A DNA stretch of 64,000 bases from Micromonospora sp. NBC_01813 (lineage in GTDB: Bacteria > Actinomycetota > Actinomycetes > Mycobacteriales > Micromonosporaceae). Made by a program: the position numbers and the translations under genes. The notes under the pieces were generated by a model, which saw only the letters and a list, made by a program, of their open reading frames with translations, was not told the origin of the DNA and ran no database searches. Positions 11,666 through 33,273 of the stretch are shown here, piece after piece. How positions within the stretch are numbered: position 1 is the first letter of the stretch; each line of letters starts with the position of its first letter. The stretch covers positions 1,242,501-1,306,500 of the forward strand of contig NZ_CP109067.1 in the NCBI RefSeq assembly GCF_035917335.1. The letters are read 5' to 3'.

Positions 11666-11707
11666 TCAGGACCTCCACGTGTCGATCGATGACCTTCAGC
11701 CTTCAGC

Positions 11708-12964: not shown

Positions 12965-13176
12965 TCTGCCAGCGTGCCGACGGCAACGTCCGCGTTCATC
13001 TCCCAGAGTGCCGTTCTCGACGCATTCATGAGGATGCCCACGCGACGACGGCTGGGTGACGCTTGTGGCTCGGTCTGGACACGACACCCGGACGCCCCGA
13101 GCCGGCCTGATGACCCGCCCCCGGGGCCGCCTGTTCGCACTGCATGCCAGCACATATCGGTAAGGGGAGGAGTGCC

Positions 13177-16133: not shown

Positions 16134-18877
16134 GCGAGAGGCTCGGCAGCCGGGCGGTCGTGCTCGGTGCCGGAATGGCGGGCCTTGTGACGGCCCGGGT
16201 GCTGGCGGATCGGTATGCCCAGGTCGTGGTCGTCGAGCGCAACACCGTCGTCGGCGTGACCGGCCCGCGTGCGGGTGTGCCGCAGGGTCACCACGCGCAC
16301 GCTCTGCTGGCCCGAGGACAGGAGGTGATGGAGCGGCTCTTCCCCGGTATGCAGGCCGACCTGACCGCCGACGGCGTGCTCAGCGGCGACCTGTCGGGGG
16401 ATCTGCGCTGGTACTTCCGCGGTCGCGTGCTGCAACAGTCGCACTCGGGCCTGAGCAGCGTCTCGGCCAACCGGCCGACGCTGGAGGCCTATGTGCGCCG
16501 GCGGGTGGTCGAAATGCCTGATGTGGTCATGCGGGAGCGCACCGTCGTGCAAGGTCTGGTGACGACGGCCGACCACAGCCGGGTCACCGGCGTGCGGGTC
16601 GTCGGAGACGAACCAGGGGCGACGCCCGAGACGATCGATGCCGACCTGGTGGTCGACGCGACCGGCCGCGGCAGCCGCACCCCGGCGTGGCTGGAGCAGT
16701 TCGGCTACCCACGGCCGGCAGAGGACAAGGTGCGAATCGACCTGGCCTATGTGTCGCAGTACTTCCGGTTGCGCACCGACCCGTTCGGCACCGACCTGGC
16801 AATCAACTCGGTGCCGCACCCCGGCAACATGCGCGGAGCCTTTTTCGGCAAGTTCCCCGACAACGTGGCCCTGCTGTCCCTTACCGGGCTGCTCGGCGAC
16901 CACCCGCCGAGGGACCGCGAGGGGTTCCTGGAGTTCGCCCGATCGCTGGACGCACCGGAGATCTACGAGGCGGTTCGCACCGCGGAACCGCTCACCGAGC
17001 CCGCGATGTTCCGCGTGCCGGCCAGCGTCCGGCGCCGGTACGAGAAGCTGACCCGCTTCCCGGACGGTCTGCTGGTCGTCGGTGACGGGGTCTGCGCGTT
17101 CAACCCCGTGTACGGCCAGGGGATGACGGTGGCCGCGATGGAGGCGGACGCGCTGGCCGAGCATCTGGGCCGCGGTCCCGCCCGTCCGCGGGAGTTCTTC
17201 CGGGCCGTGGGCCGCATCGTCGACGTGCCGTGGGAGACCTCCGTCGGCGGTGACCTGGCATTGCCCGCGATCGAAGGGAAGCGTACGGCCAAGGTCAAGG
17301 TGGGCGGCGCTTTCATGGCCCGGCTGCACACCGCGGCCCAGCGCGACGGCGCCTTCACCCGCGCGTTCTTCCGGGTGGCCGGCCTGGTCGACCCGCCGAG
17401 CGCGCTGATGAAGCCCGGCTTCATCGCCCGCGTCCTGCGCTCCGCCCGCCGGGTCGACGCCGAGACGGTGCCGGCTGGGAGGCCAGATGCCGTCGTCGGG
17501 CAACGCGCCGTCGTCGTGGGCGGCAGCGTGGCCGGGACCCTCGCGGCGCGCGTTCTGTCCGACCACTATCACGAGGTGGTCGTCGTCGATCGCGACGAGG
17601 TGCTCGGCATCGACGTTCCCCGGCGCGGCACACCGCACACCGCGCACGCGCACGGACTGCACGGACGCGGATACCTGATCCTGACCGAGCTCTTCCCGGG
17701 CCTGCGGTCCGACCTGCAGAGCCGTGGCGTGCCGGTGGGTGATCTCGGTGAGATGCGCTGGTACTTCGACGGCCGACGCCTTCAACCGGCCCGTACCGGC
17801 CTGCTGTCGATCACCACTCAACGGCCGGTTCTCGAGGAGTATCTGCGTTCCCGGGTCGCTGCGCTGCCCAACGTGACGTACCGGCAGGGCACCGAGCTGA
17901 CCGGCCTGCGGACCACCGCCGACAACCGGCGCGTCACCGCGGTGGCGCTGCGCGACATGGCGACCGGGACGGAGAGCGTTCTCGGCGCGGACCTCGTCAT
18001 CGATGCCACCGGGCGCGGCTCCCGCCTGCCGGTGTGGCTGGAGCAGTTGGGCTACCAGCGGCCGGTCGAGGAACGCATGAAGATCGGCTTGGCGTACACC
18101 ACCCGGCTATACCGCAAGCGGCCGGAGATGTTCGACGGGACCCAGTCCATCAACCCGGTCGCGTCGCCAGCGCACCCGCGCGGCGCGTTCTTCGGGCAGG
18201 TCGGCGAGCATGAGTGCATCGTGTCGCTGACCGGGATTCTTGGCGACCACCCGCCGTCGGACCCCGACGGCTTCCTGGCCTTCGCCCGTTCGCTGCCGGT
18301 GCCGGACGTGTACGACGGGCTGCGCGACGCCGAGCCGCTGACCGAGCCCGTGACGTTCACCTTCCCGGCGAGCCTGCGTCGCCGGTACGAGCGGCTGTCC
18401 CGCTTCCCGGAGCGCCTACTCGTGCTCGGCGACGCGGTCTGCAGCTTCAACCCGGTCTACGGCCAGGGCATGACGGTCGCCGCCATCGAGGCCATGACGC
18501 TGCGCAAGTGGCTGCTCCGCGGCGCGCCGCCCGAGCCGCGCGGGTTCCTGCGCGACATCGGTCGCGTCGTGGACGTGCCGTGGCAGATCTCCACCAGCGG
18601 CGACCTCGACTTCCCAGGTGTACCCGGCAAACGGTCGGCGATGGTGCGCATGGGCAACGCGTACATGGCCCGGGTGCAGTACGCGGCAACCAAGGACCCG
18701 TCGATCACCGCGAGGTTCATGCGTGTCGCCGGTCTGATCGACCCGCCGAGCGCGCTGATGCTCCCCGGCTTCGTCCGGCGCGTGCTGCGGCTGTCACGCG
18801 ACCGCACAACCGGGCCGGCGGCCGCGTCTCTCACCGCATTCGACCCAACCGACCAGGTAGAGAGGGCTGCGTCATGA
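16130..18877 (+). CDS. Tandem FAD-dependent oxidoreductase: two complete flavoprotein modules in one chain
   Basis: 915 residues, about twice the usual size. It starts in the ATGA overlap with the GMC gene. Module 1 (about 1-445) has [16 protein letters not shown], the motif [18 protein letters not shown] and [20 protein letters not shown] near 312. Module 2 (about 455-915) repeats this order: [16 protein letters not shown] near 460, [18 protein letters not shown] and [20 protein letters not shown] near 762. Both also end in [20 protein letters not shown], so this is an in-frame duplication of a single gene. The fold resembles FAD-dependent monooxygenases and geranylgeranyl-reductase-like enzymes. 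Both halves keep the FAD motifs, so two active sites are possible. It overlaps the downstream epoxide hydrolase by ATGA. Confidence 0.85.
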
Positions 18878-20025
18878 AACCGTTCCGCATCGAGATTCCG
18901 CAGGCCGCCATCGACGATCTCCACCGTCGGCTGGCCGACGTCCGCTGGCCCGCGCCATTGGGAGACGACGACTGGAGCCGCGGCGTACCGGTGTGGTATC
19001 TGCGTGAGCTCGTTGAGTACTGGCGTACCCAGTACGACTGGCGGGCCGCCGAGGCTGAGCTGAACCGGTACCCCCAGTTCCTCGCCGAGATCAACGGCGT
19101 CACCGTTCACTTCCTGCACGTACGTTCCCCGGAGCCGGACGCGGTGCCGATGCTGATGACCCACGGCTGGCCGGGCTCGGTGGCCGAGTTCCTCGACGTC
19201 ATCGGCCCGCTGACCGACCCTGCCGCGCACGGCGGCGACCCGGCCGACGCGTTCCACCTCGTCATTGCCAGTCCGCCGGGGTTCGGCTTCTCCGGCCCGG
19301 CCCGCCCGGGGTGGCACGCGGGCACCATCGCGCCGGTCTGGGCCGAGCTGATGAACCAGCTGGGCTACGACCGGTACGTGGTCCAGGGCGGCGACGCCGG
19401 CGCGGTCATCTCGCAGCAGGTCGCCGCCGTGGCACCCGATCATGTCATCGGGTTGCACGTCAACATGCTGATGACCTTTCCGTCCGGCGACCCCGAGGAG
19501 TTGGCCGGGCTCAGCGAGGTCGACCAGGCGCGTCTCGCACTCATGGGCCGCTTCGACGCGGAGCTGTCCGGATACATGAAGCTGCAGGCGACCCGGCCGC
19601 AGACCTTGGCGTACGCGTTGACGGACTCGCCCGTGGGCCAGTTGGCCTGGATCGTGGAGCGGTTCCGGGAGTGGACCGACGCGGCGAAGGTGCCCGACGA
19701 CGCGGTGTCGAGGGACCGGTTGCTGACCAACGTGACCATCTACTGGTTCACCGCCACCGCCGGCACGTCGGCCGCGCTCTACTACGAGGGCGCGGAGGGC
19801 ATGCGCGCGATGGCCTCCGGCTGGCGGCCGGAACCGATACGGGTCCCGGCCGGCGTCACGGTGTACCCGCACGATCCCTTCCAGCCGATGCGTGGGCTGG
19901 CGCACCACTACCTGGCTGACATCGTGCGGTGGAGCGAGCCCGACCGGGGTGGTCACTTCGCCGCGATGGAGGAACCGGACCTGTTCGTCGACGACGTGCG
20001 AGCCTTCGGCCGCATCGTGCGGTGA
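18874..20025 (+). CDS. Epoxide hydrolase (EHN-type alpha/beta hydrolase)
   Basis: 383 residues from [20 protein letters not shown]; the start overlaps the upstream stop (ATGA). The N-terminal epoxide-hydrolase domain carries [18 protein letters not shown]. The alpha/beta hydrolase core has [16 protein letters not shown], the nucleophile D174 in VQGGDAGAV, and the general-base H361 in [14 protein letters not shown]. This set matches active microsomal-type and enediyne-cluster epoxide hydrolases that open an oxirane to a vicinal diol. It is a close paralogue of the protein at 7440, which has lost the histidine. It is the last gene of the 13177-20025 operon. Confidence 0.9.
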
Positions 20026-20218
20026 CGGCAACGGAAGACGGGCGGCCTGACTCGGCAGGACAACCAGACAAGCGCAGCAGGATGAACAAAGCGCAGTATC
20101 GGAGTAGACCCGTCGAGGCACATCGATATGCTTCTGGAGTGGATCGACGCTCCCGCTGACGGCTCCCACAGCGGTCCACGACGCTATGGACGGTGCCTGG
20201 CCATCGAAGGAGGCTTCC

Positions 20219-21448
20219 ATGCCGGCAACCGGTAACCCCAAAGTCTCGATAGTGATCCCGACGTACAACCGTCGCGACCGGCTGCACAACACCTTGCACC
20301 AGCTCACCCGGCAGGTGCCCGGCACGCCGGAGTTTGAGGTCGTGGTGTCCGACGACGGCTCGTCCGACGACTCGGCGACCGTCGCCAAGTCGTTCTCCGA
20401 TCGGCTGAACCTGAAATACACCTACCAGGAGGATCTCGGCAACCGGGTCGCGCTCGCGCGCAACAACGGTGCGCGGCTTGCCACCGCACCGATCCTGGTC
20501 TTTTTGGACACCGGCGCGATCGCCGGGCCCGACTTCGTGCTACAGCACTATTTGGCCCACAGCAACGGTTCGCCGCGGCATGCCCTGGCCGGATACGCCT
20601 ACGGCTACAACCCCGGGGACCCGATGGTGCAGGTGCCCGATCTCCTCAAGCGGTTCACACCCGAGGAGATGGTGGAGGTCTACGGCCGGGTCCACGAGTT
20701 CCTCGACAGTCGCGAGCTGGCGCTGCTCAGGTGCGACGACGACCTGACCAGGCGCAGCGTGCCGTGGCTCATCTTCTGGACCATCAACTGCTCCATGCAC
20801 ACCGACGACTTCTGGGCGGTGGGCGGCTTCGACGAGGGGCACCGCGGCTGGGCCGTGGAGGACCTCGATCTCGGATACCGCCTGCACCGCAGCGGCCTGC
20901 CACTGCACTTCACCCGCAAGGCGTGGGTGATCGAGGAGCACCAGGACCGGGTGTTCGACGAGCAGTACGAGGAGTTCAAGGCCAACATGCTGCGCTTCGT
21001 GACCAACAATCCGGAGCCGGTCAACGAGATCGGCTGGACGGTGGCGGTCCACGAAAACATGTTCTGGTCGTGGGAGGAGGACAACAAAGACCTTGTGCGG
21101 TACACCGACGAGGTACGCGGTCTGGACGTCTCGGCAGAGGTCGAGCGGGCGTTGCGGGGCGTCTCCGCGACCGACCGCGTGGTCGTGATCGGCGCCGGTG
21201 GCGCGTTGCCCGAGTCGATGCACGCAGCCACCGTGATGGACTTCGACCGGGAGTTGATCGAGCGTGTTGCAGCCACCGGGCGGCACGTCACCCATCACAG
21301 CCTGGGCCTGCACACGCCGCTGGCCGACCAGTCCGCCGACGTCGTCATCCTCACGTCCCGGCTCGCGAAGTTCTGGCGCCGCTGGGAGGACCAGTTCATG
21401 ATCGAGGCACGCCGCATCGGACGAGACGTGCGCTGCCTCGTGCCGTAG
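20219..21448 (+). CDS. Family 2 glycosyltransferase with C-terminal Rossmann-like domain (paralogue)
   Basis: 409 residues. The start at 20219 (MPATGNPKVS) has GAAGGAGG 6 bases upstream. The GT-A fold shows VSIVIPTYNRRDRLHNTL, VVSDDGSSDDSATV, EDLGNRVALARNNGARLA, VFLDTGAIAGPDFV and the region DEGHRGWAVEDLDLGYRLHR. A C-terminal segment VVVIGAGGALPESM...SADVVILTSRLAKFWRRW matches the same tail in the glycosyltransferase at 11708-12964. It should transfer a sugar from a nucleotide donor in the cytoplasm; donor and acceptor are unknown. It is 193 bases downstream of the epoxide hydrolase and may have its own promoter. Confidence 0.85.
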   Translation: MPATGNPKVSIVIPTYNRRDRLHNTLHQLTRQVPGTPEFEVVVSDDGSSDDSATVAKSFSDRLNLKYTYQEDLGNRVALARNNGARLATAPILVFLDTGAIAGPDFVLQHYLAHSNGSPRHALAGYAYGYNPGDPMVQVPDLLKRFTPEEMVEVYGRVHEFLDSRELALLRCDDDLTRRSVPWLIFWTINCSMHTDDFWAVGGFDEGHRGWAVEDLDLGYRLHRSGLPLHFTRKAWVIEEHQDRVFDEQYEEFKANMLRFVTNNPEPVNEIGWTVAVHENMFWSWEEDNKDLVRYTDEVRGLDVSAEVERALRGVSATDRVVVIGAGGALPESMHAATVMDFDRELIERVAATGRHVTHHSLGLHTPLADQSADVVILTSRLAKFWRRWEDQFMIEARRIGRDVRCLVP

Positions 21449-21603
21449 ACCCGCACTCCCCACCCGATCGAGGTGACGCGGCCGGCGTCACCCCACCCGA
21501 CGTGCCCGGATTCCGTGTCACGCATCGAGCAATCTCCAAGCGGCGATGGTCGCGGGCCGAGTTCCCGTACTGGGCCTATCGGGGCACGGTGCTCCTGCGC
21601 TTC

Positions 21604-21730
21604 TGACGCCATCAAGACGGCGGCCGACATTCTCCACACCGCCAGCAGCGGGTCGTCGCACCCCAACGCCAACCTGGAGCGGTACGTCCGGATGCTGTGC
21701 GGCCTGCAGCCCAACACCACGTACCTCTGA
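21604..21730 (+). pseudogene. C-terminal remnant of an acyl-CoA dehydrogenase-fold flavoenzyme
   Basis: Only about 41 codons remain, ending in GLQPNTTYL followed by TGA. They align with the C-terminus of the flavoenzyme at 9663-10835: ADILHTASSGSS against VDILRRASGGSS, and NLERYVRMLCGLQPNTTYL against NLELYGRVLSGLEPDTLYL. The intervening ~20 residues of the intact gene are missing, and nothing upstream matches the rest of the protein. The stub is far too short to fold, so it is a deletion remnant of a second copy. Confidence 0.7.
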
Positions 21731-21822
21731 CTCGGCACACCCCGGAAAGCCTGCCCACCGATCATCGCCGTCCGGTGGGTGGGCTGCCGCGGCCTGCCCG
21801 AAAAATCAAGAGGAGGAACCGG

Positions 21823-23256
21823 ATGCAGCCAACGCTTTCCGACGCCACACCCCTCACGGGCACCACATCCAGCACGGGCCGTCGCGTCGCGGCGCTGGTC
21901 CTGCTGTGCTTCGCCAGCTTCATGATGATCCTCGACTCGGAGATCGTGATTCTGGCCCTGCCGTCCATCCAGAACGCCCTCGGGCTGGACCCCTCGGCGG
22001 CGCAATGGATCCTCACGGCCAACGCCATCACCTTCGGCGGCCTGCTCCTGCTCGGCGGGCGCATGGCCGACCTGCTCGGCCGGCGCCGCGTGTTCATGTG
22101 GGGCATGGCCCTGTTCCTGATCACCTCGCTGGTCTCCGGCATCGCCTGGAGCGGTGAGGTCATCATCGTGGCCCGCGCGCTGCACGGCGTGTCGTCGGCC
22201 ATGCTCGTGCCCAGCGCGCTGTCCATCCTGATGAACACCTTCCGGGAGGGTAAGGAACGCAACCGGGCCATCGCCTCGTGGTCGGCGGTCGGCGGCATCG
22301 GCGCCACCGCCGGGCTGCTGCTCGGCGGCACGATCACGACCGCGCTCGGCTGGCAGTGGGTCTTCCTGGTCAACGTGCCGGTCGTGGCGCTCGTCATGCT
22401 GATCAGCCCGTTCGTGCTCGACGAAAGCTGGGACCGCAACCGCATACGCAACTTCGACATCGCCGGCGCCGTCACCATCACCATCGCCGCGACCGCCCTG
22501 GTGTACGCGATCAGCAACGGGCCCGCGCTCGGCTGGGGCAGCGCACCGATCATCGCCCTGTTCGCCACGGTGATCTTGCTCCTCGCGGCGTTCGTCGTGA
22601 TCGAGGCCCGATCCGCCGCACCCCTTGTGCCGCTTCGCTTCCTGCGGCTGAACACGGTGATGAGCGGCAACCTGCTCATGGTCGTCGTGGCGATGATCGT
22701 GTGGGGCGCGAGCGTGCTCATCTCGCTCTACACCCAGCAGGTGCTCGGCTACTCGGCCATCATGTCGGGCTTCGCCACCTCGGTCATGCCCGTGGCCGCC
22801 GTGTTCGGCGCCTACATCGGGCAGGCCTTCATCACCAAGCGCGGATTCCGCGTGGTCGCCGGGATCGGACTGCTCGGGCTCGGCGTGTGCTGCCTGCTGC
22901 TGTCCCGGATACCCGTCGAAGGACAATACTTCCGTAACCTGTTCGTCGCGCTAGGACTGTTTGGTCTCTCCCTGGGTGTCGCGCACACCACCGCCTCGAT
23001 CGTCGCACTCACAGCGGTCCCCGAGCCGGAATCGGGCCTCGCCTCCGGGCTGAGCGCCGCGAGCTTCCAGGTCGGCGGCGCCATCGGCGTCGTGTTCGTC
23101 ACGACCGTGTCGGTGACCGTCTCGGGCGGATCCACCTTGCTGCCCGATCTGACCAGAGGTTTCCAAGCCGCGTTCATCGCCCTGGTGTGCGCCGCGATCG
23201 TCGGCTTCGTCATCGCCCTGGCGCTGCCGCGCAAATCGGTCGCGCAGGCCAGTTGA
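21823..23256 (+). CDS. DHA2-type MFS drug/metabolite exporter
   Basis: 477 residues. The start at 21823 (MQPTLSDATP) has AAGAGGAGG 6 bases upstream; the frame continues back to 21697 only through non-coding sequence. About 14 transmembrane helices are expected. Motif A is seen as GGRMADLLGRRRVFMWG after helix 2 and motif C-like glycines in SAVGGIGATAGLLLGG in helix 5. The first helix carries the LDSEIVILALPSI stretch common in proton-driven 14-helix exporters such as QacA and EmrB relatives. At the end of the tailoring-enzyme cluster it is the likely exporter of the product, by position only. Confidence 0.9.
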   Translation: MQPTLSDATPLTGTTSSTGRRVAALVLLCFASFMMILDSEIVILALPSIQNALGLDPSAAQWILTANAITFGGLLLLGGRMADLLGRRRVFMWGMALFLITSLVSGIAWSGEVIIVARALHGVSSAMLVPSALSILMNTFREGKERNRAIASWSAVGGIGATAGLLLGGTITTALGWQWVFLVNVPVVALVMLISPFVLDESWDRNRIRNFDIAGAVTITIAATALVYAISNGPALGWGSAPIIALFATVILLLAAFVVIEARSAAPLVPLRFLRLNTVMSGNLLMVVVAMIVWGASVLISLYTQQVLGYSAIMSGFATSVMPVAAVFGAYIGQAFITKRGFRVVAGIGLLGLGVCCLLLSRIPVEGQYFRNLFVALGLFGLSLGVAHTTASIVALTAVPEPESGLASGLSAASFQVGGAIGVVFVTTVSVTVSGGSTLLPDLTRGFQAAFIALVCAAIVGFVIALALPRKSVAQAS

Positions 23257-23258
23257 CC

Positions 23259-23285
23259 GTGGGGCCGGCTCAAGGCCGGCCCCAC
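23259..23285 (+). terminator. Terminator-like hairpin after the MFS exporter
   Basis: An 11-bp perfect inverted repeat (GTGGGGCCGGC with GCCGGCCCCAC), arms 23259-23269 and 23275-23285 with a 5-base loop, 2 bases past the stop codon. Confidence 0.85.
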
Positions 23286-23569
23286 CCAAGATTGTTCGCG
23301 CGCTGGTTCCTGTCGTCCGTCCGGCTTCGACCCGTCCGGGAAAGCTGCCCGCAAGGCCATGACAGGAGCAGCGAACCTTTGGGCCGTTGCGCAGGTAGCC
23401 GAAGTCCAGGTAGTGACCGCCGTACCACCCCTCAGCCGTGGAATCTGCACCGGACTCGTCGTCTCGGGCGGTCCAGGTCGTGGCATCCGCTTCGATGAAG
23501 GGCAGCAGATCGGAGGGCACCGGTTCCAGATGAGGTCGAGCCGGTGGTGCCCGGTGGACCGGGCGGTGG
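23286..23569. other. Intergenic, no convincing gene
   Basis: This stretch between the MFS terminator and the PARG-like gene has open frames on both strands but none with a ribosome site, a plausible start or a recognisable domain. A minus-strand frame (to 23577) contains STAEGWYGGHYLDFGYLRNG, which reads somewhat protein-like and may be a decayed gene. I cannot assign it. Confidence 0.4.
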
Positions 23570-24406
23570 TCAGCCACGAGGTTCGCCGCTGGTCCGCTCG
23601 TCGGCCGCGGGGCTGAAACGTTGGGCGAACGCGGCGTGGACCGGTGTTCCGGGCAGGTTGTCGCGGATGGCGAAGACGACGTGGTCGAAGTGCTGGACCG
23701 CGTTCAGGGCTTGGGCGAACGCGTCGGCCACGATCGCGGGGTCGTTGCGGAACACCCCGCACCCCCACGCACCGAGCACGAGGCCGCGATGCCCGTGCGC
23801 CGCGGCGACCTCGAGGATCCGCCGGGCCCGCCGGGCGAGTACGGCTGGTACGTCGCCGGCGTGGTCCGGCTGGCTGCGTACGATCGCCCCGAGGTTGGGC
23901 GCGGCTGTGGTCAGCAGCGAGGTGGTGTACGGCTGGTCGAGCAGGTTGCCATGGTCGTCGCGGAACACCGGCACGTCGGGGGAGTAGACGAGCCGGTCGC
24001 TGTAGCGCAGGTCCCGTTGGGCGCGGTGGAAGGCGTAGAACTCGGGCGCGGCCCGCAGACATGCGTACAGGGCTGATGAGCGGGCGATGCTCTCCTCCTG
24101 CGCCTGGGCGCCACCGAGGAATCCGCCGCCGGGATTCTTGGCCGAGGCGAACACCAGAGCCGCCGCGCCGGGGCCGAGACGGCGCGCCGCGAGCAGCGTC
24201 GACTCGTGTGTCACCTCCACTGTACAGGTACCCGGCTCGCGGTGCGCGAAAGTGATCGCCTCATCGGGCAGGTGGTGCCGGGTCCCGGCGACCGCAGCGC
24301 GGACCGCCTCACCGATGACGACCTCGTCACCGATGTCGTTGCGGTAGCGGCCCGATTCCGTGATCGTCACCGTTTGCCGGGCGATCTCTCGAAGACGGCC
24401 GCTCAC
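23570..24406 (-). CDS. TIGR02452-family protein (bacterial PARG-like macrodomain)
   Basis: 278 residues from MSGRLREIARQTVTI. The family signature is NPGGGFLGGAQAQEESIAR near residues 90-110: a GGG loop followed by QEE, the catalytic motif of poly(ADP-ribose) glycohydrolase macrodomains. Also visible are YSPDVPVFRD and GLVLGAWGCGVFRNDP, both typical. Members are predicted to remove ADP-ribose from proteins or nucleic acids, and some occur near phage-defence or toxin genes. It is convergent with the MFS gene and next to a decayed transposase at the edge of an accessory island. No ribosome site is obvious before 24406. Confidence 0.85.
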   Translation of the reverse strand: MSGRLREIARQTVTITESGRYRNDIGDEVVIGEAVRAAVAGTRHHLPDEAITFAHREPGTCTVEVTHESTLLAARRLGPGAAALVFASAKNPGGGFLGGAQAQEESIARSSALYACLRAAPEFYAFHRAQRDLRYSDRLVYSPDVPVFRDDHGNLLDQPYTTSLLTTAAPNLGAIVRSQPDHAGDVPAVLARRARRILEVAAAHGHRGLVLGAWGCGVFRNDPAIVADAFAQALNAVQHFDHVVFAIRDNLPGTPVHAAFAQRFSPAADERTSGEPRG

Positions 24407-24522
24407 GGGTACACCGGGCCGGCGAGGTTACCGAGGAGTGACACAGCCAGGGAACCTACGCAGCAACGTGGTGGCGGGCAACCCGGTGAGGCGAGGATGG
24501 AGTCGCTGCCGGGCTCGGTGCC

Positions 24523-24799
24523 GTGCCCGCGCAGCCCGAGCGCGCCGACTACCTTGAGGCGGTGCGGCGGCTCGCGCCGGGCCGGTTGGCGGAGCTGGTG
24601 GCGGGTACGCGGTTCGGGATCGCCTGTTCGCCACCCTGTTGCTGGGCGAGGCCGGCATGCTCGACTCTGCTGCCGAGTCCGGTCTCGCTGACTTCCGCGC
24701 CGCTGTCCGGGACGCGTCGAAGGCGACGACCGGGAGCAGGTGGCAGATCCCCGATGTGGAGGCCGCCGATCATCGCCTGGCCGCCGAAGTCGAGGGATC
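24523..24799 (+). pseudogene. Broken coding region, family not recognised
   Basis: Protein-like sequence can be followed across two frames. The first gives PERADYLEAVRRLAPGRLAE and then LVAGTRFG. It continues in another frame as LLGEAGMLDSAAESGLADFR and then AAVRDASKATTGSRWQ. No single frame is open through the whole. It runs directly into the IS5-type transposase fossil, suggesting a gene disrupted by insertion and later indels. I do not recognise the domain. Confidence 0.3.
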
Positions 24800-25110
24800 C
24801 TGCTCTGCGAACTCAACGTCCACGGCCGCATCGACTGGTCCAGAGCGATCATCGACGGCGGACACATCGACGCGAAAAAGAGGGCGAGGGGACCGGTCCA
24901 TCCCCGGTCAACCGCGGCAAACCCGGCAGCAAGCACCATGTGATCACCGACGGAGCGGGCACCCACTCGCGATACTCACCACCGGCGCCAACATCCCCGA
25001 CATCAGCAAGGCCGTGGACCTGCTCGACGCGGTACCACCCATCGCCGGCCGCCCCGGTCGACCACGCCGACGGTTCCCCGTCCTGCTCGCCGACAAGGGC
25101 TACGTGGACC
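24800..25110 (+). mobile_element. Decayed IS5-family transposase fragment
   Basis: Typical IS5-type DDE transposase segments appear in order but in three frames: LNVHGRIDWSRAIIDGGHID, then GPSPVNRGKPGSKHHVITDG, then LTTGANIPDISKAVDLLDAV and FPVLLADKGYVDL. At least two frameshifts separate them, and the N-terminal third and C-terminal part are absent, so the gene is dead. It is not the same family member as the intact transposase at 62874. No terminal inverted repeats could be placed. Confidence 0.7.
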
Positions 25111-25320
25111 TTCGCCGCAGTCCTGGTCATCTTCTTCGGCAGCACGTTGCTGCCGGGTCGGCCGGAGGAGCCAGCGGAACCGTAGGAGCCCGCCGTCACC
25201 GCAGTCCCGCCGTCCGATTCGGCCAGGGTCTCCACCGGCCAGCCTTGATGGTGAGCGTCCTGGAGTAGGTCGAATCTCATCCTGGTCCTGGCGAGCCGTC
25301 GGGGTCGGAGCGGGTAGGTG

Positions 25321-25352
25321 TCGCTTGCCGCGAGGATGCTCGTGGCAAGCGA
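25321..25352. repeat. 9-bp inverted repeat in a gene-free stretch
   Basis: TCGCTTGCC (25321-25329) pairs perfectly with GGCAAGCGA (25344-25352) across a 14-base loop. It lies in the ~500 bases between the transposase fossil and the helicase, where I see no gene. It may be a terminator or part of an old mobile-element end. Confidence 0.4.
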
Positions 25353-25611
25353 CAACCAGGCGGGAATTTGTCGCCATGGCGATGTCGCGGCGGCTGTGGC
25401 CGAGGGTTGAGGCACCATGCGGGGTGTGACGTGGCTCAAGCGAGACCGTTGGGGCCGGCGGGTGACGGTGGTCGAAGCATTGATCATCGGTGATCAACGG
25501 CCAGGTGTCCACTCACTCATGTCGTGATCATCGAGAAGCTCTTGTGTTCTTGGTCGGGCACGGCGCAGTCTGTTGCGTTGCCTTTCTAGTGAAGCAGGGG
25601 GTCCAAGGGGC

Positions 25612-28600
25612 GTGGATCGTAGTCAGGATGCGCTGCAGAAGACGACGAGGCTGATCGAGTTTTTGGCGGAGGTTACGGCTGCGGTCGAGCGTGACCCGGT
25701 TATCGACATCCTGGATGACCCGGACCGGCCGGACCCGATCATCTGGCTCGATGCACTGCCAGATGAGGTTCAGTTGGCAGACGGCCCGCAGGATGAGGTG
25801 CTTATTCGGCTGCGTCCGCCGCGGGCACGCGTGGAGCCGGCTCCACCGGAGGTGCTGCACGGCTGGGTCGATACCGAGACGGCGCGTGGGGTCGACGGTC
25901 CTGCGCCACGTCTGTTGTGTACCGCTACAACTCATGACGAGGTGGACCCCGGTCTTGAGCCGCCTTTGAGAGTGGTGCGGCTGTTCGACCATTGGGCCGA
26001 GGAATGGAGGACCTGGCGCCACGAAGCGCTGCGGCTACGTGCCGTTCGTGCGTTGTATGAAGAGCTTGAGCGCGCCGCCAAGGTTATGGAACAGCAGGAC
26101 GATGAGTACGAGTTCGTTCTCTGTGTTGGCCTATTGCGTTGGACGGCTCCGGATGGCAGCCGAATTCGTCGCCACCTGATAGCGGAGGGCGCGGTTGCCC
26201 GGTTGGACCAGGCGACGGCAGAGGTATCGGTGTCGATTGCCGCAGGACGACGCCGGGTCGAGGATCGAGAGATCCTCGACGAGATTGAACTGTTCCGAGG
26301 TGATCGCGGCCGGAATAGGCGGCATGAGATCGTCGATGGTGACACGCCGATGCTGGAGCTACTGCCCCCGATCTTGGATCTACTCGGGGAATGTCTGGAT
26401 GCCCAGCTGCAGGTAGATACCTCCGGAGCGGTGCCGGGCGACCAGTTGCCGGCGACGCCGCTGGTTAGCTTGTCACCGGCGTTGCTGGTGCGCCGACGCA
26501 GCCGGGTGCTGCTCGCGGAGGCTTACCAGCACATTCGTGAAGCGCTGCGGCAGCCCGACGCGCAGATACCCGTCGCCCTCGCGCAGTTGGTGGTCGACAC
26601 CGAACCGGAGCAGCGCAACGGCTGGCTACGTGGGCAGGGTGCCGTTCACGGCGACGTGCTCGGAAGTGATCCCTTGTTTCCGTTGCCGACAAACGACGAG
26701 CAGATCCGCGTTATCGAGCTGCTCCGGTCCGAGACCGGAGTCGTGGTACAAGGACCGCCCGGCACTGGCAAGACGCACACGATCGCCAACCTGGTGTCGG
26801 CATTGCTGGCTCGTGGTCAGCGTGTGCTTGTCACAAGTCAAAAGGATCAGGCGCTCAGCGAGCTTCGCGACAAGGTGCCGGCGGCATTGCGTGATCTGTG
26901 CGTATTGATGACTGATGGCAGAAACGCCGCGGCCGAACTCGGCCAGGGTCTCGCGGCACTGTCGCGCATGACGGCGTCCACGGAGACCACCGGATTAGGC
27001 GACCGGGTGGAGATTCTTCGGCAGGAGCGCCATGAACTGCGATCGCAATCCGCGCTACTCAATAACCAAATCCAGAAGCTGCGCGAGATTGAGTTCATCT
27101 CACATGCCCCAGTCGTTCCGGGATTCAGTGAGGATATTTACCGCGGGTCGCTCGGGCAGATCGCGCGCCAGGTGAAGGCGGGCGCAGGCAGTTTCGGCTG
27201 GATGCCGCCAGTCGGAGCGAGCCTGCCCGACGTGCCACCGCTGTCGGCTGGAGAGGCTGTCGAACTGCTGCACCTGCTGCGGACGACGAGCCCGACCCGT
27301 GGCGCCCGTCTGCAGCAGCAGATACCCGAGCCGTCGGACCTGCCCGCGCCCGCCTACCTTGCTGAGGCGTTCGTCGCCGAGTATGACGCCGCCGCCACAG
27401 TCCAAGCGAACACCAACGCGCTGGCAACCCGACTGGCGGACGCGGGCGAAGGCATGCTGACCGACCTGGAGGAACTCGGGCGACGATCTACCACCATCGT
27501 CGAGCGCCTCGATCTCGACAGCGGCACAGGATCGACGCCTGAGTGGGTGGCACGCGCCGCCGCAGATCATTTCGCCGGTCGGCGCCGGACGCTGTGGCGA
27601 CACCTGACCGAGGTAGCTGGTCGGGCAGATCGGTTACAGGAGAAGCTCCGGACGCACGCCCTCGGCTTCGAAGTACGGATCACATCCACAGGCGAGTTCG
27701 ACCTCGGGCAAGCCCGGCACATGCTCACTGTAGGGCGGGAACTACGCGCGCACCTCGCTGACGGCATCACATGTCGCAGTCTCTTCGCCATCCAGAGCGC
27801 GCGGCACCGGGCCGCGCCTTTGATGAAGAACGTGCGGGTGGATGGTCAGCCACCCACCACCCTGCCGCTCCTAGACGCAGCGCTCGACCACCTCGCGATC
27901 TACATCGAAACCGCCCAGCTCGTCCGACTGTGGGCCGACGTCCAAGTTCCCGTTCCGGCCGGCAGTGTCATCGCGACACTGTCCGAGCTACAGGACTTTC
28001 ACCACTTACTCATCGATGTCCGCTCGCTCGCCGACGTCCACACCGCGATAGGTGCGCGCCTAGCGTCTGCCGGCGCATCACCCAGGATGCTGACAGTCGC
28101 CGATGTCACGGAGGTCATCGCCTCCACTGCGGCCGCCCGCCAGCACCTACGGCTGCGGCACGCGCAGGCTGTCATCGACGCGCTGCGCGGGACAATCCGG
28201 AAAAATCAGACACGAGATGACACCTGCCCGGAAATGGGGCTGCTGACTGACGCCATCGACAAGCGGTCCGTCGAGGCATATCGGCAAGGCATGGAGGCCA
28301 TCGACGAGGCCAGGGGAGAGCGGTATGCCGAATGGCGGCGCGTCACGCTCACGGAACGTCTTGGCGCCACGCACCCACAACTTCTCGCCGATTTGCAGAA
28401 GAGCGTTCACAGCGCAGACTGGGAGGCCCGCCTCCAAAGACTTCCCGCAGCGTGGGCTTGGTCCAAGGCCGATCAGTTCATTCGGACGCGGCGAACTGCC
28501 GAGAGGGAACGCCAGATAAGGAAAATGTACGACGAAGTCGAAGAGAAACTCACGCGGGTGACCACGGAGCTTGTGGCAGCCGAGGCCATTCGTGCGTGCG

Positions 28601-30102
28601 TCAATCGCATGACGGACACTCATATGAGGGCCCTGCGCACCTACGGTGAGTTCCGCAACCAGATCGGGGCAGGCGGCGGACGCAAGGTCCGAGAACTACG
28701 CCAAGCGGCCCGCGCGGCGATGAACAAGGCCAAGGGCGCCGTACCTGCATGGGTGGTCCCGCTGCCGAGCCTGTTGGAGAATCTCTCCATTGAACGCAAC
28801 GCTTTCGACGTGATCATCGTCGATGAGGCGAGCCAGGTAGGGCTGGAACATCTCTTCCTTCTGTGGCTGGCCCCAAGAATAATCGTCGTCGGAGACGACC
28901 AACAATGTACTCCAGCGCCCAGCCGAATGGGCAGAAGCTTCGACACGCACTTCAAATCACTCCGCGATCACCTAGGCGACCTCGACACCGAGATCAGGTA
29001 TCACTTCACGCCAAAGTCGCACCTATACGGCCTGCTGTCCGCGCGATCCGGCAAAGACGCAGTTGTCCGCCTGCGAGAACACTTCCGGTGCATGCCAGAG
29101 ATCATCAACTGGTCGAGGGCTCAGTTCTATCGAGGTGCGAACGAAATCATTCCGCTGCGCGAACGTAGCGCTCGTGACCTGGATCCGCTCCGCGTTGTCT
29201 CTGTGGAGGGCGCGTACCCGGAGCGGACCGGGCAGGCCATCCGTAACCCCGTCGAGGCGAAACGCATCGTCGGACAGCTACTAGACTGCCTTGCCAACCC
29301 GCAGTACAAGGACAAAACCTTCGGCATCATCGTGCTACACGGATACGGCCAGATCCAACTCCTGGACCACGAGATCAACGCAGCCATCCCCGCGCAAACC
29401 CGTACTGCCCGGCAGATCAGGGTTGGCTCGGCACCCAACTTCCAAGGAGCTGAGCGCCACGTCATCTTCCTCTCAACGGTGGTCACGGCTGCCCCACGAC
29501 GACTGGGTGAGCACCTGTCGCAAAACTACAACGTCGCTGCCAGCCGCGCCCGTGATCAACTCTGGCTGTTCAGCTCCATCGCCCCCGGAGACTACAAGCC
29601 CGATGACCTCCGCGCCTCACTGATCGGCTACATGCTGAACCCACCATCCGTCTACGGACCCTCACCCGACCTGAAGACCGTCAGCGCCGACCAGCCTCGT
29701 GCGCCGTTCGAGTCCCTGTTCGAGCAACGCGTGTACCGGGTCCTCAAACGCCGCGGCTACCACGTCGTACCCCAGCTCAAAGTCGGCTCCCGCTCGCTGG
29801 ACCTCGTGATAGTCGGCAACGGGGGCAGGCTTGCCGTGGAATGCGACGGCCACCGCTGGCACACGAGGCCGACCGACGTGATTTCCGACGCCCGTCGCGA
29901 TCGGGAACTAGGCCGCATGGGCTGGGAAGTCATCCGAATACGCGAGAGCGAATTCGAGATCGACCCAGACAAGGAACTCGCACCCCTGTTCGCCCGGCTC
30001 GCCGAACGTGATATCAGCCCGCATAACGTACAGCCAACCACAGATAACACATGGAAGCCCGTTGAACTGCTCCCCCAGGACGAGGAAGGCGAATCGCTAT
30101 GA
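25612..30102 (+). CDS. Large SF1 (UPF1/DNA2-like) helicase with C-terminal PD-(D/E)XK-type nuclease domain
   Basis: 1496 residues. The GTG start at 25612 (VDRSQDALQK) is chosen as the first plausible codon after a purine-rich stretch. Residues 1-370 have no recognised motif. Walker A QGPPGTGKTHTIANL is at about 381, Walker B with DEAS in DVIIVDEASQVGLEHLFLLW at about 1066-1085, then VVGDDQQCTP, and the motif VI-like NVAASRARDQLWLFSS at about 1310. About 680 residues between Walker A and B form a long insert. The last ~130 residues, from PFESLFEQRVYRVLKRRGYH at about 1365, hold LDLVIV and LAVECDGHRWH, a Vsr/DUF559-like nuclease core. The stop overlaps the next gene (ATGA). Similar helicase-nuclease fusions occur in phage-defence loci; a DNA-cleaving defence role is inference. 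Confidence 0.85.
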   Translation: MDRSQDALQKTTRLIEFLAEVTAAVERDPVIDILDDPDRPDPIIWLDALPDEVQLADGPQDEVLIRLRPPRARVEPAPPEVLHGWVDTETARGVDGPAPRLLCTATTHDEVDPGLEPPLRVVRLFDHWAEEWRTWRHEALRLRAVRALYEELERAAKVMEQQDDEYEFVLCVGLLRWTAPDGSRIRRHLIAEGAVARLDQATAEVSVSIAAGRRRVEDREILDEIELFRGDRGRNRRHEIVDGDTPMLELLPPILDLLGECLDAQLQVDTSGAVPGDQLPATPLVSLSPALLVRRRSRVLLAEAYQHIREALRQPDAQIPVALAQLVVDTEPEQRNGWLRGQGAVHGDVLGSDPLFPLPTNDEQIRVIELLRSETGVVVQGPPGTGKTHTIANLVSALLARGQRVLVTSQKDQALSELRDKVPAALRDLCVLMTDGRNAAAELGQGLAALSRMTASTETTGLGDRVEILRQERHELRSQSALLNNQIQKLREIEFISHAPVVPGFSEDIYRGSLGQIARQVKAGAGSFGWMPPVGASLPDVPPLSAGEAVELLHLLRTTSPTRGARLQQQIPEPSDLPAPAYLAEAFVAEYDAAATVQANTNALATRLADAGEGMLTDLEELGRRSTTIVERLDLDSGTGSTPEWVARAAADHFAGRRRTLWRHLTEVAGRADRLQEKLRTHALGFEVRITSTGEFDLGQARHMLTVGRELRAHLADGITCRSLFAIQSARHRAAPLMKNVRVDGQPPTTLPLLDAALDHLAIYIETAQLVRLWADVQVPVPAGSVIATLSELQDFHHLLIDVRSLADVHTAIGARLASAGASPRMLTVADVTEVIASTAAARQHLRLRHAQAVIDALRGTIRKNQTRDDTCPEMGLLTDAIDKRSVEAYRQGMEAIDEARGERYAEWRRVTLTERLGATHPQLLADLQKSVHSADWEARLQRLPAAWAWSKADQFIRTRRTAERERQIRKMYDEVEEKLTRVTTELVAAEAIRACVNRMTDTHMRALRTYGEFRNQIGAGGGRKVRELRQAARAAMNKAKGAVPAWVVPLPSLLENLSIERNAFDVIIVDEASQVGLEHLFLLWLAPRIIVVGDDQQCTPAPSRMGRSFDTHFKSLRDHLGDLDTEIRYHFTPKSHLYGLLSARSGKDAVVRLREHFRCMPEIINWSRAQFYRGANEIIPLRERSARDLDPLRVVSVEGAYPERTGQAIRNPVEAKRIVGQLLDCLANPQYKDKTFGIIVLHGYGQIQLLDHEINAAIPAQTRTARQIRVGSAPNFQGAERHVIFLSTVVTAAPRRLGEHLSQNYNVAASRARDQLWLFSSIAPGDYKPDDLRASLIGYMLNPPSVYGPSPDLKTVSADQPRAPFESLFEQRVYRVLKRRGYHVVPQLKVGSRSLDLVIVGNGGRLAVECDGHRWHTRPTDVISDARRDRELGRMGWEVIRIRESEFEIDPDKELAPLFARLAERDISPHNVQPTTDNTWKPVELLPQDEEGESL

Positions 30103-30935
30103 CTGGTAGCACGGTGGACGGCGGCAGCGACATCCGCGTCGAACTCGACGAGAACGTCCTCAATCGCCTAGCGGACCTCATCTGCGGCGACGATACTACT
30201 CCTTACTATCGGACCGGCCGCCAGATCACGGCGCTCTTCGACGCCGCCGGCTGGCGCCGTGTCGGAGAAGTCGATGGCCCACGGCGCGCCTGGGTCCTCG
30301 ACACGCTCCAGAAGCGCCGCCGCGACTCCGAAGCGCTGCATCGACTGCTGCTTCGACTCGCCGACCCCCGCGAGTACCTTGACGACGATGAAGCTCGTAG
30401 CCATCTGGTTCAAGCCCTCAACGAGCTACTCGCCGTCGAGGGCTACCAGATCCTCTACACCAATGGCCGTCCGGAACTGATCACACAGACCCCGACGATG
30501 AAGCGCCCTGCAATGCAAGCACCGATCCAACTCACCGCCAGCCTCACCAACATCCTCAGTGACCCAGACTTCGGCCAACAACTCAAGAGCAGACTCGACG
30601 AGGCCCACGTCTGCTGGCAGTCCGGCGCCTGCACCGCAGCCATCATAATGCTCGGCAGTTTGCTGGAGGGCGTTCTCTACGATGTCGCCCTCGCCCAGCA
30701 CACCGACGGACCTCGCCCTACCGACCATCTACAGTCACTCATCGAACTTGCCGCCGAGAAGCAATGGATCGCTCAGGACGTGATTGACTATGCTCACGTG
30801 CTGCGAAACCACCGGAACCTCGTACACCCGAAGAAGCAGCTCAACCAGCGGTACGCACCAGATGATGACACCGTTCGCATCGCCTGGAACGTCGTCGTTG
30901 CCGCGCTCAACGACCTTGAACAAGTCAAGAGATGA
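30099..30935 (+). CDS. HEPN-domain protein, AbiJ-like, coupled to the helicase-nuclease
   Basis: 278 residues, starting in the ATGA overlap with the helicase gene. The N-terminal ~110 residues are a charged alpha/beta region (ELDENVLNRLADLICG, ALFDAAGWRRVGEVDGPRRA) resembling the N-terminal domains placed in front of HEPN modules in AbiJ-type proteins. The C-terminal ~130 residues are helical (SGACTAAIIMLGSLLEGVL) and end with LRNHRNLVHPKK. This contains the HEPN motif R-N-x5-H at R236, N237 and H243. HEPN proteins with this motif are usually RNases acting as toxins or abortive-infection effectors. Co-translation with the helicase-nuclease suggests a two-component system. The exact subfamily is inference. 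Confidence 0.7.
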   Translation: MTGSTVDGGSDIRVELDENVLNRLADLICGDDTTPYYRTGRQITALFDAAGWRRVGEVDGPRRAWVLDTLQKRRRDSEALHRLLLRLADPREYLDDDEARSHLVQALNELLAVEGYQILYTNGRPELITQTPTMKRPAMQAPIQLTASLTNILSDPDFGQQLKSRLDEAHVCWQSGACTAAIIMLGSLLEGVLYDVALAQHTDGPRPTDHLQSLIELAAEKQWIAQDVIDYAHVLRNHRNLVHPKKQLNQRYAPDDDTVRIAWNVVVAALNDLEQVKR

Positions 30936-31142
30936 CGACTACGTCCCGCCGGGTTGAACGGCAAGAGGCGACGGCTGCGCGATCTGACACCGACCCCAGA
31001 TCGATTCAGCGCGTCCGTCGCGTCAGCGTTGCCAGTATCGAGGCGGACCTTGACGAGGCCCGATGACATCGTAGTGCCGAGCCTGCGCGCCTGGCGGCGC
31101 AGTAGCTGTCGCTTGACCCGAGGGTGGTGCGGAGGTGGACCA

Positions 31143-31322
31143 GTGAGTGACTCGCCGACCGACGCTTTCAGCACCCGCTTGAGGGAGCCCGACGCCACCG
31201 CCCAGGGCTACGCCGTAGCCGCTGACGAACAGCCGAACATCAAAGCGCATGTCCGGGGAGGCTGGCGCCGACCTCCGCCGGATCGAGGACCGACCAGTGA
31301 CTGGACCACTACTTATCGGTGA
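31143..31322 (+). CDS. Small hypothetical protein, possibly the 5' part of a frameshifted gene
   Basis: 59 residues from a GTG with GGAGGT five bases upstream, the best ribosome site in this stretch. The first 37 residues (VSDSPTDAFSTRLREPDATA and on) read protein-like. After about position 31255 the frame becomes Arg/Pro-rich and poor. At that point a GGGG run allows a switch into the frame of the gene at 31249-31509. One base indel would join them into a protein of about 120 residues. No domain recognised. Confidence 0.3.
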   Translation: MSDSPTDAFSTRLREPDATAQGYAVAADEQPNIKAHVRGGWRRPPPDRGPTSDWTTTYR

Positions 31323-31509
31323 GGTCGGCTACCGCAGCAAGGACGATGTAGTCCTCCGCCGCGCCCTCTACGAGGTGTGGAAGAGCCGATTCGCCTTCTG
31401 TACCCGCCCGACTCTCAGCTGGGACCTGCGCTTCGAGGACGATCCGAACGGCGAGATCGAGGTGGATATCACCGAGGTCTACAGCCGCTACTCCGTCTCC
31501 CGGAACTGA
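31249..31509 (+). CDS. Hypothetical protein, possibly the 3' part of a frameshifted gene
   Basis: 86 residues. The segment YRSKDDVVLRRALYEVWKSR followed by FAFCTRP looks like the start of an HNH-type module in which the first cysteine of a CxxC pair is Phe. The rest, DDPNGEIEVDITEVYSRYSV, has no second zinc knuckle, so an active nuclease is unlikely. There is no ribosome site before the ATG at 31249, and the better-supported start is at 31143 in another frame. Confidence 0.35.
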   Translation: MSGEAGADLRRIEDRPVTGPLLIGEVGYRSKDDVVLRRALYEVWKSRFAFCTRPTLSWDLRFEDDPNGEIEVDITEVYSRYSVSRN

Positions 31510-31709
31510 TCCACCCCTTAGGGTCCGGTGCTATAGGTCGCGGCACCGACTCAGAAGCCGGCGAACGCCGCAACTGACATCCGCAGTGGACTCACGCTGA
31601 GTCACCGTTGTAGAGCATTCGGTGTTTTCCGGGGCGCCCGGTCCAGCCACGTCATCGATACAGGCGTCGCTCGTTGGTCAGGGTGAGGTATCGCATCGAG
31701 GTGATCTCC

Positions 31710-33160
31710 ATGGGCGGTACGGCAAGCGTCAACCAGCCCGATTTCCTTACCGGGTGGCTACACAGCGCGCAACCTCAATCCCGGATCCGAGGGCAGCGAC
31801 CACCACCTGCTGTCGGTCTCCTGCGGTTCGCCTTCTATGGACGGATCTCCACCGCCGAGTACCAGGACGCCACCTCATCACGGGCCTGGCAACTCGACTC
31901 GGCAAACCGGACCATCGCCGACCACGGTGAAATCGTCTCTGAGTACTTCGACATCGGCTGCTCCCGCCGTCTGCCGTGGCACGCACGCCCGCAAGCCGCC
32001 GCACTGTTCACCGCCGTCACCCAACCGCGCCGAGTGTTCGACGCGGTCATCATCGGCGAGTTCGAACGCGCCTTCGACGCCGACCAGCTTGCCGGTGTCG
32101 CCGCCGTGCTGGCCGCTCGCGGGGTTCAACTGTGGCTTCCCGAGACCCGCGGGCCCGTCGACCTGAACGACCCCACCCACCAGGCCCTGGTCATGCTGCT
32201 CGGGCACCAGTCGAAACGGGAAGTACTCCGTGCCCGGTTCCGCACCACGATGGCCATGCGCGCCCAAGTCCGCGAACAAGGCCGGCACCTCGGCGGGCGG
32301 CCACCCTACGGCTACCGCCTCGTCGACGCCGGACCCCACCCGAACACCGCGCATGCCCGCTGGGGACGCCGACTGCACCGACTCGCCCCCGACCCGGTCA
32401 CCGCACCACATGTGCAGTGGATTTTCGCGCAGCGGATCGTTGGAACCAGTGCCGCCGGCATTGCTCGTACCCTGAACCACCTGGGTGTTCCGTCACCATC
32501 ACGGTACGACCGCAGCCGCAACCGGCACCGCACAGCTGAAGGATGGACGGTACGGACGGTCGCCGAGCTCCTCGCCAACCCCCGCTACACGGGGAGGCAG
32601 GTGTGGAACCGGCAGTACACCGACCATCAGGAGACCGAGCCGGGGGACCGGCGCACCAGTCGAGGATCGGTACGGCGCTGGAATCCACGAGACCAGTGGG
32701 TGCTGTCCACCCGGTTGGTGCACCCGCCGCTGGTCAGCGAGACGGACTTCATCAAGGCCCAAACGGTGAACGCGGTCGCCACGCCGGAGGACGGCCTGCC
32801 GCGCCGGTACCTGCTCACCGGACTGGTCATCTGCCGAACCTGTGGCCGACGAGCCGACGCGCACTGGGTACGCGGACGGCCCGGATACCGGTGCCGACAC
32901 GGCCACAGCAGCGCCAGCCCGCCCTACCCGGCCGGCCCAAGTCGCTGTACTTACGCGAAGACCTGCTCCTCGCCCACATCGCACGGCAACTCGACGATCG
33001 AACGACGGAAGCCGGCGACGACGCGCGAGCTATCGCCGCGTACCTACGGGCAAACCAGATCACCATCACCTGCGACGCCGACACCATCACAGTCGGCCGG
33101 CAGCCGTTGATAACCCGAGTCCCACGCCAGAAGCGACGACCCCCACCCGAACCGCCCTGA
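31710..33160 (+). pseudogene. Large serine recombinase/integrase, frameshifted near the 3' end
   Basis: The start at 31710 (MGGTASVNQP) has GAGGTGATC upstream. The resolvase domain begins at RFAFYGRISTAEYQD, with the catalytic serine in GRIS. A recombinase domain follows (GGRPPYGYRLVDAG, TVRTVAELLANPRYTGRQVW), then a zinc ribbon (LVICRTCGRRADAHWVRGRP). After about 32930 the frame turns to low-quality sequence and stops at 33110. The expected continuation, RPKSLYLREDLLLAHIARQL and on to the stop at 33160, is in the -1 frame, so one base appears lost near the CCCGGCCGGCCC run. It could be a true mutation or a read error. The gene lies 30 bases from the 3' end of tRNA-Leu, as expected of an integrase. 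Confidence 0.75.
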
Positions 33161-33189
33161 AACATGAACGGCTGTGGTGGGGGTTAACG

Positions 33190-33273
33190 TGTCCGAGGGG
33201 GGACTTGAACCCCCACGCCCTATACGGGCACTAGCACCTCAAGCTAGCGCGTCTGCCATTCCGCCACCCGGAC
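33190..33273 (-). tRNA. tRNA-Leu (anticodon GAG)
   Basis: The minus strand folds as a class II tRNA. The acceptor stem GTCCGGG pairs with the 3' CTCGGAC (one G-U), the anticodon arm is CTAGC-TTGAGGT-GCTAG with anticodon GAG, a long variable arm is formed by TGCCCGTATAGGGCG, and the T arm contains GGTTCAAGTCC. The long variable arm and GAG anticodon identify a leucine tRNA reading CUC/CUU. CCA is not encoded. Its 3' end faces the serine recombinase, so it may mark one boundary of the island. Confidence 0.95.

Follow-up and report, generated by a model that had tools for sequence, protein, structure and literature searches.

What does a giant helicase-nuclease do when the gene behind it, overlapping it by four nucleotides, encodes a HEPN protein? 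Such a pair lies in a 64,000-nucleotide stretch of the Micromonospora sp. NBC_01813 genome (contig NZ_CP109067.1, positions 1,242,501 to 1,306,500), hereafter the window, whose numbering is used throughout. A first-pass annotation, made from the letters of the sequence, had proposed that the two genes (25612..30935) form one phage defence system. Because the genes lie back to back and are kept together in many actinobacteria, they likely form a two-part antiviral module.

The upstream gene (25612..30102, + strand; open reading frame (ORF) list and Pfam) encodes a 1496-residue UPF1-like superfamily 1 (SF1) helicase with a C-terminal MTES_1575 (Vsr-type) nuclease. The ORF ends at 30102 and could start at TTG 25573 or GTG 25612; we favoured the GTG because the alignments of the closest homologues begin at residues 2-5 of that start. 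The motor domains AAA_11 and AAA_12 were both above their Pfam cut-offs. We call helicases of the window's kind type A, and compared its motifs with 14 type A sequences linked to a HEPN gene. Walker A (GPPGTGKT, residues 381-388; 26752..26775, + strand) was present in 13 of the 14, the remaining row being N-terminally truncated, and the D and E of Walker B (VDEASQ, residues 1070-1075; 28819..28836, + strand) were present in all 14. Because of where these motifs lie, an insert of ~680 residues (26776..28818, + strand) separates them; for the most part it is less conserved than the motor. The restriction endonuclease (REase) domain (PF18741; 29719..30000, + strand) scored 89.1 bits in Pfam against a cut-off of 38.2. 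D1397, E1410 and D1412 are its putative catalytic residues; the D was kept in 13/14 HEPN-linked type A relatives and E-x-D in 14/14. The rows with motif exceptions were L006, which is N-terminally truncated, and L009, in which the REase D is replaced by G. These data confirmed both ORFs, the SF1 Walker motifs and the insert that the first-pass annotation had described. The nuclease core that it had read at the C-terminus corresponds to a predicted MTES_1575 domain with largely kept active-site residues. In a separate locus (L051 and its copy L033; the G126 pair), the helicase is truncated ahead of Walker A and matches from residue 506, and the HEPN gene is full length.

The downstream gene (30099..30935, + strand) encodes a two-domain HEPN protein of 278 residues (ORF list, Pfam, profile comparison). 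Profile comparison divided it into two modules, both of which recur on other proteins: an N-terminal module (residues 14-132; 30138..30494, + strand) and a DUF4145-like HEPN domain (residues 140-276; 30516..30926, + strand). The N-terminal module is weakly AbiJ_NTD3-like (19 bits in Pfam, cut-off 32.5). The earlier description of the protein as HEPN/AbiJ-like held for its HEPN part, as DUF4145 was found in the C-terminal domain of 8/11 homologues (threshold E 0.05; the best had E 4.1e-6). It held only weakly for AbiJ, as AbiJ_NTD3 was found in 1/11, below its cut-off. Nor is this a non-HEPN housekeeping family: its best family, DUF4145, is part of the HEPN superfamily (PMC3710099; here and below, papers given by PMC number are cited for the parts of their text that were available).

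The homologue alignment placed the HEPN motif at R236-N-H-R239-N240-L-V-H243 (30804..30827, + strand), with the conserved form R236-x2-R239-N240-x-[VI]242-H243. Among 31 homologues (a thirty-second, L065, is broken and was excluded), R239-N240-x2-H243 was present in 31/31 and R236-x6-H243 in 30/31, K replacing R236 in the other. R239, N240 and H243 were invariant even in homologues 35-40% identical to the window protein. The first-pass annotation had read the motif as R-N-x5-H; the motif is present and R236 and H243 are conserved, but N237 is not (N in 3/31).

We next consider how faithfully the two genes occur together. The stop and start codons overlap by 4 nt as ATGA (30099..30102, + strand; ORF list), as first described. 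We collected 32 distinct strong HEPN homologues (>280 bits; L033 was dropped as a copy of L051, and L065 is the broken one). Adjacency was kept, not rare: a giant helicase gene was directly upstream in 32/32. Order and close spacing were kept too, a HEPN start at most 11 nt from the helicase stop being possible in 31/32; the exception, L065, has both genes broken. The spacing was a 4-nt overlap in 17 pairs, a 1-nt overlap in 5, a 7-nt overlap in 1 and a gap of 1-11 nt in 8, although these values are biased to small distances by a script that took the possible HEPN start nearest the helicase stop. The L055 helicase is split over two frames close to its end. By their coordinates, the two genes also lie side by side in four Streptomyces plasmid records.

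Within the 397 genomes of the order, a HEPN-family profile matched 29 places in 27 genomes. Full-length matches accounted for 23 of the 29. Every one of these had a giant helicase gene immediately upstream, which was of type A in 7 cases and of a remote type, here called type B, in 16. The remaining six (G069 and G630 with two each, G838 and G158 with one each) were partial, with no such helicase neighbour. At E 1e-60, type A helicases matched 66 places in these genomes, and all seven scoring ≥810 bits had the HEPN gene; 28 of the 66 places were tallied by script, and the rest were deduced, the 23 full-length HEPN places being already used and the genomes of the six partial ones being absent from the list. 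For type B, 16/16 matches above 1000 bits had HEPN and 4/4 at 707-934 bits did not, in a tally that leaves out weaker matches and one fragment (G817). In a set of 201 nearer relatives, the HEPN protein matched in 18 genomes, over most of its length in 12. Score was no separator in this set, as type A helicases of 720-794 bits were linked to HEPN and two of 918 and 876 bits were not. The linkage is clade-specific, since many related helicases have no HEPN gene. In the HEPN-less type A relatives that we checked, the downstream place was empty or held other genes; in L012 it holds an overlapping SF2 helicase (Pfam), and a similar protein is present in L184. Separately, an SF2 helicase gene in L057 (10730-12916; ResIII, Helicase_C, ERCC3_RAD25_C) is overlapped by an upstream HEPN-less type A helicase.

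We characterized type B through four HEPN-linked loci, all of which had DUF4011 (4/4). Three of these proteins are intact and matched PADLOC model PDC-S37 at 903-934 bits; the fourth is split into two pieces. Profiles of the type A and type B N-termini matched each other with 0.6-2% probability. This probability gives no support to a DUF4011-like origin of the window helicase N-terminus, but would also be compatible with a remote relation.

Tree and distance analyses addressed the history of the pairing. Fifty type A helicases were placed in a first tree (pieces below 900 residues such as L065, duplicates and L187 omitted). The 14 HEPN-linked rows formed one side of a branch with a support of 99 (Shimodaira-Hasegawa-like approximate likelihood ratio test, SH-aLRT), and 36 rows were without HEPN. 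The 14 come from three families of the order and from Streptomyces plasmids. A second tree combined both types in 73 rows over the C-terminal 560 residues and also omits the L072 pieces; there, support for the HEPN-linked type A group was 84. Types A and B lay at opposite sides of a long branch, the HEPN-linked type B row L069 was unresolved against HEPN-less type B rows, and the HEPN label cost three changes. Read most simply, these trees suggest that the pairing arose at least two times; a single old origin followed by many losses could also have produced them. Distances among HEPN proteins mirrored those among their helicases (Mantel r = 0.935 for 14 type A pairs, 0.968 for 16 type B pairs; 0/5000 permutations as high for either type), and therefore indicate joint inheritance, not contact. 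A quick HEPN tree supported the A/B split at 67-75 only. Both genes are under purifying selection: in 9 locus pairs, the ratio of nonsynonymous to synonymous substitution rates (dN/dS) ranged from 0.07 to 0.16 for HEPN and from 0.09 to 0.20 for the helicase; two of these locus pairs had a dS above 1.

The pair is carried on a strain-variable island (23338..33188), delimited by comparison with the syntenic same-genus genome G003. From 5623 to 23337 the window is largely syntenic with G003, apart from some gaps, at 91-97% identity. Beyond 23337 homology ceases, and it returns at 33189, which is precisely the 3' end of a tRNA-Leu(gag) gene (33189..33273, - strand; tRNA annotation, synteny), 1.83 kb lying between these points in G003 versus 9.85 kb in the window. 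The order of the tRNA and the start of a phosphoketolase gene was the same in 6/6 same-genus genomes searched, with the match likewise beginning at 33189; left of the tRNA, 20-kb stretches of the same-genus genomes other than G003 showed no synteny. GC content was 61-66% over the pair versus 65-73% in sampled flanks. At the right edge of the island, beside the tRNA, is a serine recombinase gene (31674..33110, + strand; Pfam Recombinase 65.5 bits, cut-off 21.1). We searched the left edge of the island for a directly repeated copy of the tRNA end and did not find one. This is expected because the core of a serine recombinase site is 2 bp. Two same-genus genomes (L201, L202) have, by eye, an apparent C-terminal remnant of a serine recombinase at the same tRNA, whose 3' end thus looks like a recurrent insertion site.

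Besides the pair and the recombinase, the coding-like ORFs of the island are a PARG gene, a transposase remnant and a small ORF. The microbial-type PARG (23570..24406, - strand) matched TIGR02452 in NCBIfam at 274.5 bits. The broken transposase upstream of the pair (24523..25268) matched DDE_Tnp_1 at 17.7 bits, short of its cut-off (23). The small ORF, of 86 residues, is flanked by the HEPN and recombinase genes (31249..31509, + strand), has a coding-like GC content at third codon positions and had no Pfam match. We considered PARG as a third component and rejected it: its Pfam family was seen in 1/101 scanned type A neighbour proteins, with the E-value of the window's own. The recombinase was also rejected as a part of the system and is held to be a mobility gene.

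That neighbour scan covered 101 of 120 listed ORFs around type A pairs, those of the window included, and what follows concerns the first 25 of 69 families listed. JetC and JetD (Wadjet) were each matched by two proteins. There was also a strong GajA (Gabija) match (2.3e-205), an ApeA N-terminal domain, and transposases and integrases. One pair adjoins annotated TIGR02678/02679/02680 and DUF2397 genes, a set that we take to be Wadjet-like.

The two halves of the HEPN protein also recur apart from such helicases. Residues 14-132 matched the N-termini of the L086-L088 proteins in profile comparison (96.8%), whose C-terminal half differs. Residues 140-276 matched the L139-L141 proteins (99.7%), which lie in restriction-type neighbourhoods with HsdR nearby (by Pfam for L139, by eye for L140 and L141). 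They also matched two viral-contig proteins (98.9%) and a Paraburkholderia protein (L146, 98.6%) whose gene is directly upstream of a PIN-domain gene and ~5 kb from annotated qatABCD. These matched proteins (98.6-99.7%) carry the same HEPN motif. The two viral-contig proteins were remote HEPN-domain matches; a search of 50,697 phage records with the HEPN protein (E 1e-5) gave no match, and the helicase had none in viral contigs. We did not count as pairs the remote kin without such a helicase, namely L086-L088, L120-L121, L139-L141, L145, L146, the broken L073, Deinococcus L207 and two partial matches from the phylum.

In L086-L088 the N-terminal module is joined to a nuclease-looking C-terminal half, which for L087 and L088 had no Pfam match, and L087 appears by eye to lie beside Qat-like genes. 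In Prevotella L145 (9995-12306), a full-length HEPN relative (24% identity) directly precedes a caspase-domain (Peptidase_C14) gene. Conjugation-like genes, identified by eye, lie upstream of it, and the locus is possibly another defence pair.

On balance, we consider it probable that the helicase-nuclease and HEPN genes are one anti-invader module, in which an abortive HEPN RNase would be under the control of the helicase-nuclease. We favour this because of the domains and their intact motifs, the conserved operon, co-inheritance, purifying selection and an island beside a recombinase. Further reasons are the Wadjet, Gabija and ApeA-type matches near some type A pairs and the precedents of CnuH/CnuE and HamAB. 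A plausible function is that the helicase-nuclease senses or cuts and the HEPN protein is the abortive effector. The UPF1-like helicase-nuclease would load onto abnormal or invading nucleic acid, such as free ends or single strands, and ATP-driven movement would license the Vsr-type nuclease to cut DNA. The same conformational change might release or activate the HEPN RNase, bound to the helicase through its N-terminal module, and the RNase would then halt growth or kill the cell.

Several observations weigh against this reading. Of the 66 type A places in the order (E 1e-60), 59 were without HEPN, some at 774 bits, and among the nearer relatives, close type A helicases of 918 and 876 bits (G033, G043) also had none; HEPN therefore appears dispensable for the core activity. 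Phylum-wide, HEPN was rare, a search of 396 genomes at E 1e-8 returning the window's own genome and two partial matches. The usual HEPN catalytic motif is R-x4-6-H. R239-x3-H243 is below this spacing, which leaves R236 as the catalytic Arg unless the motif is atypical. The DUF4145 score of the window protein, 22.9 bits, is just short of the cut-off of 23.1. The neighbourhood of the type B pairs gives no defence-island support, because matches were mainly kinase-like (PD-T4-6) among the first 25 families listed from 82 of 105 listed neighbours scanned.

Other explanations fit parts of these data. The pair could be a toxin-antitoxin-like addiction unit that stabilises the island, with HEPN as a toxin-like back-up, the helicase-nuclease merely its antagonist and phage defence secondary. 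The tight operon, the co-inheritance, the absence of any observed loss within the HEPN-linked type A group and the island's own recombinase are all in keeping with this. However, an ATP-driven nuclease of 1496 residues with intact motifs would be a costly mere antitoxin, and the helicase occurs without HEPN in 36/50 type A rows; we consider an addiction pair improbable. We give a similarly low standing to direct DNA restriction by the helicase-nuclease with the HEPN domain as a nucleic-acid-binding adaptor instead of an RNase. Inactive HEPN families exist (PMC3710099) and many relatives of the helicase act without HEPN, but an adaptor does not account well for R239, N240 and H243 being invariant in every homologue counted, including those only 35-40% identical.

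A UPF1/DNA2-like motor with a nuclease would also suit a DNA repair or genome-maintenance pair with no role in defence. The patchy distribution (full-length HEPN in 23/397 genomes) and the island and plasmid locations argue against this, as does the fact that the best NCBIfam models are named anti-phage, albeit far under cut-off, and we regard a repair pair as quite unlikely. That the genes are chance neighbours with no joint function is already contradicted by adjacency in 32/32 and by the mirrored distances; we found nothing in its favour and give it almost no weight.

The defence module may also be one case of a wider arrangement, which we offer, taken as a whole, as a tentative and rather doubtful proposal. 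There would be a plug-in effector slot directly downstream of a Vsr-type sensor helicase-nuclease. At least two remote lineages of helicase would have acquired the two-domain HEPN family, which then became fixed in them, while relatives have an SF2 helicase in the slot or leave it empty. Within the HEPN protein, the N-terminal module would be a general docking adaptor, coupling different killers (the HEPN RNase, the nuclease-looking domain near Qat-like genes, the HEPN homologue beside the Prevotella caspase gene) to different sensors. If this were true, the module would be a dual DNase and RNase system.

Our data add a well-supported two-gene module, for which we found no name, that joins a DNA-cutting helicase with a predicted RNase in trans. 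They also indicate that helicases matching PDC-S37, which PADLOC lists as a bare candidate, keep a constant partner within one lineage. Both helicase types occur in lineages that have the HEPN gene and in lineages that lack it, which provides a natural test of the way in which UPF1-like defence helicases may control separate killer proteins.

We compared the pair with named systems using NCBIfam and PADLOC, the latter being a library of defence models only. The first-pass annotation knew of no named system with exactly this pair, and we also found none: the pair departs in at least one defining feature from each named system considered. It was undescribed among the papers listed by the literature search, which left most subscription papers and bioRxiv outside. 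The three best NCBIfam models for the window helicase were ProA, Hhe and the PLuB helicase, all far under cut-off; ProA (NF058533) gave 173.9 bits against a cut-off of 1500. Its best PADLOC models were PDC-S37, Mokosh and Hhe, and the HEPN protein had no PADLOC match. Hhe (NCBIfam NF042953, PADLOC PDLC02194) has the motor lobe and nuclease region in common with the window helicase (residues about 980-1480), but the helicase scored 101.6 bits against a cut-off of 2000 and did not match DUF4011 (Pfam, E 0.1). PDC-S37 scored 164 bits on the window helicase, too low against the 903-934 of the intact type B partners, which have DUF4011, whereas the window helicase does not. PADLOC supplies no description of this model; here, 16/20 close type B helicases have a HEPN partner. 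The SF1 helicase core of Mokosh (MkoA/MkoC) is related (123 and 107 bits). The defining parts of that system are a helicase and a kinase or PLD part; the window pair had no kinase or PLD match in Pfam (E 0.1), and has a Vsr-type nuclease and a HEPN partner.

Closer likenesses in architecture and working were found in systems with other components. CnuH of CoCoNuT types II and III-A resembles the window helicase in being UPF1-like, of SF1, and in having a large insertion behind Walker A. Helicases of its family are typically operonic with a variable effector downstream, and the downstream effector gene of CoCoNuT, CnuE, combines an N-terminal module, an elongated wHTH, with HEPN (PMC11090510). 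Unlike in CoCoNuT, no McrB/McrC-type (CnuB/CnuC) gene was found in the island (23338-33188). In type III-B a Vsr fusion replaces the HEPN effector, whereas here a Vsr-type nuclease on the helicase is present together with a HEPN partner (PMC11090510). Hachiman HamAB is alike in working, its sensor helicase restraining and then activating a nuclease partner, but the helicase and effector families differ, as judged by description (PMC12278908). The fused HEPN-transglutaminase-SF1 helicase-Vsr-wHTH giants (MTES_1575) likewise combine an SF1 helicase, an MTES_1575-type nuclease and HEPN, and are predicted to attack DNA first, with HEPN suicide upon failure (PMC3710099). In the window, HEPN is instead a separate downstream gene, of the DUF4145 family versus the Abi2/SWT1 group of the giants (PMC3710099). 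We regard the pair as a candidate defence helicase of the UPF1-like kind that works with a HEPN effector in trans. It is set apart by a predicted second nuclease, carried by the helicase itself, by a single HEPN family that serves two remote lineages of helicase, and by the lack of any McrBC-type gene seen in the window's island.

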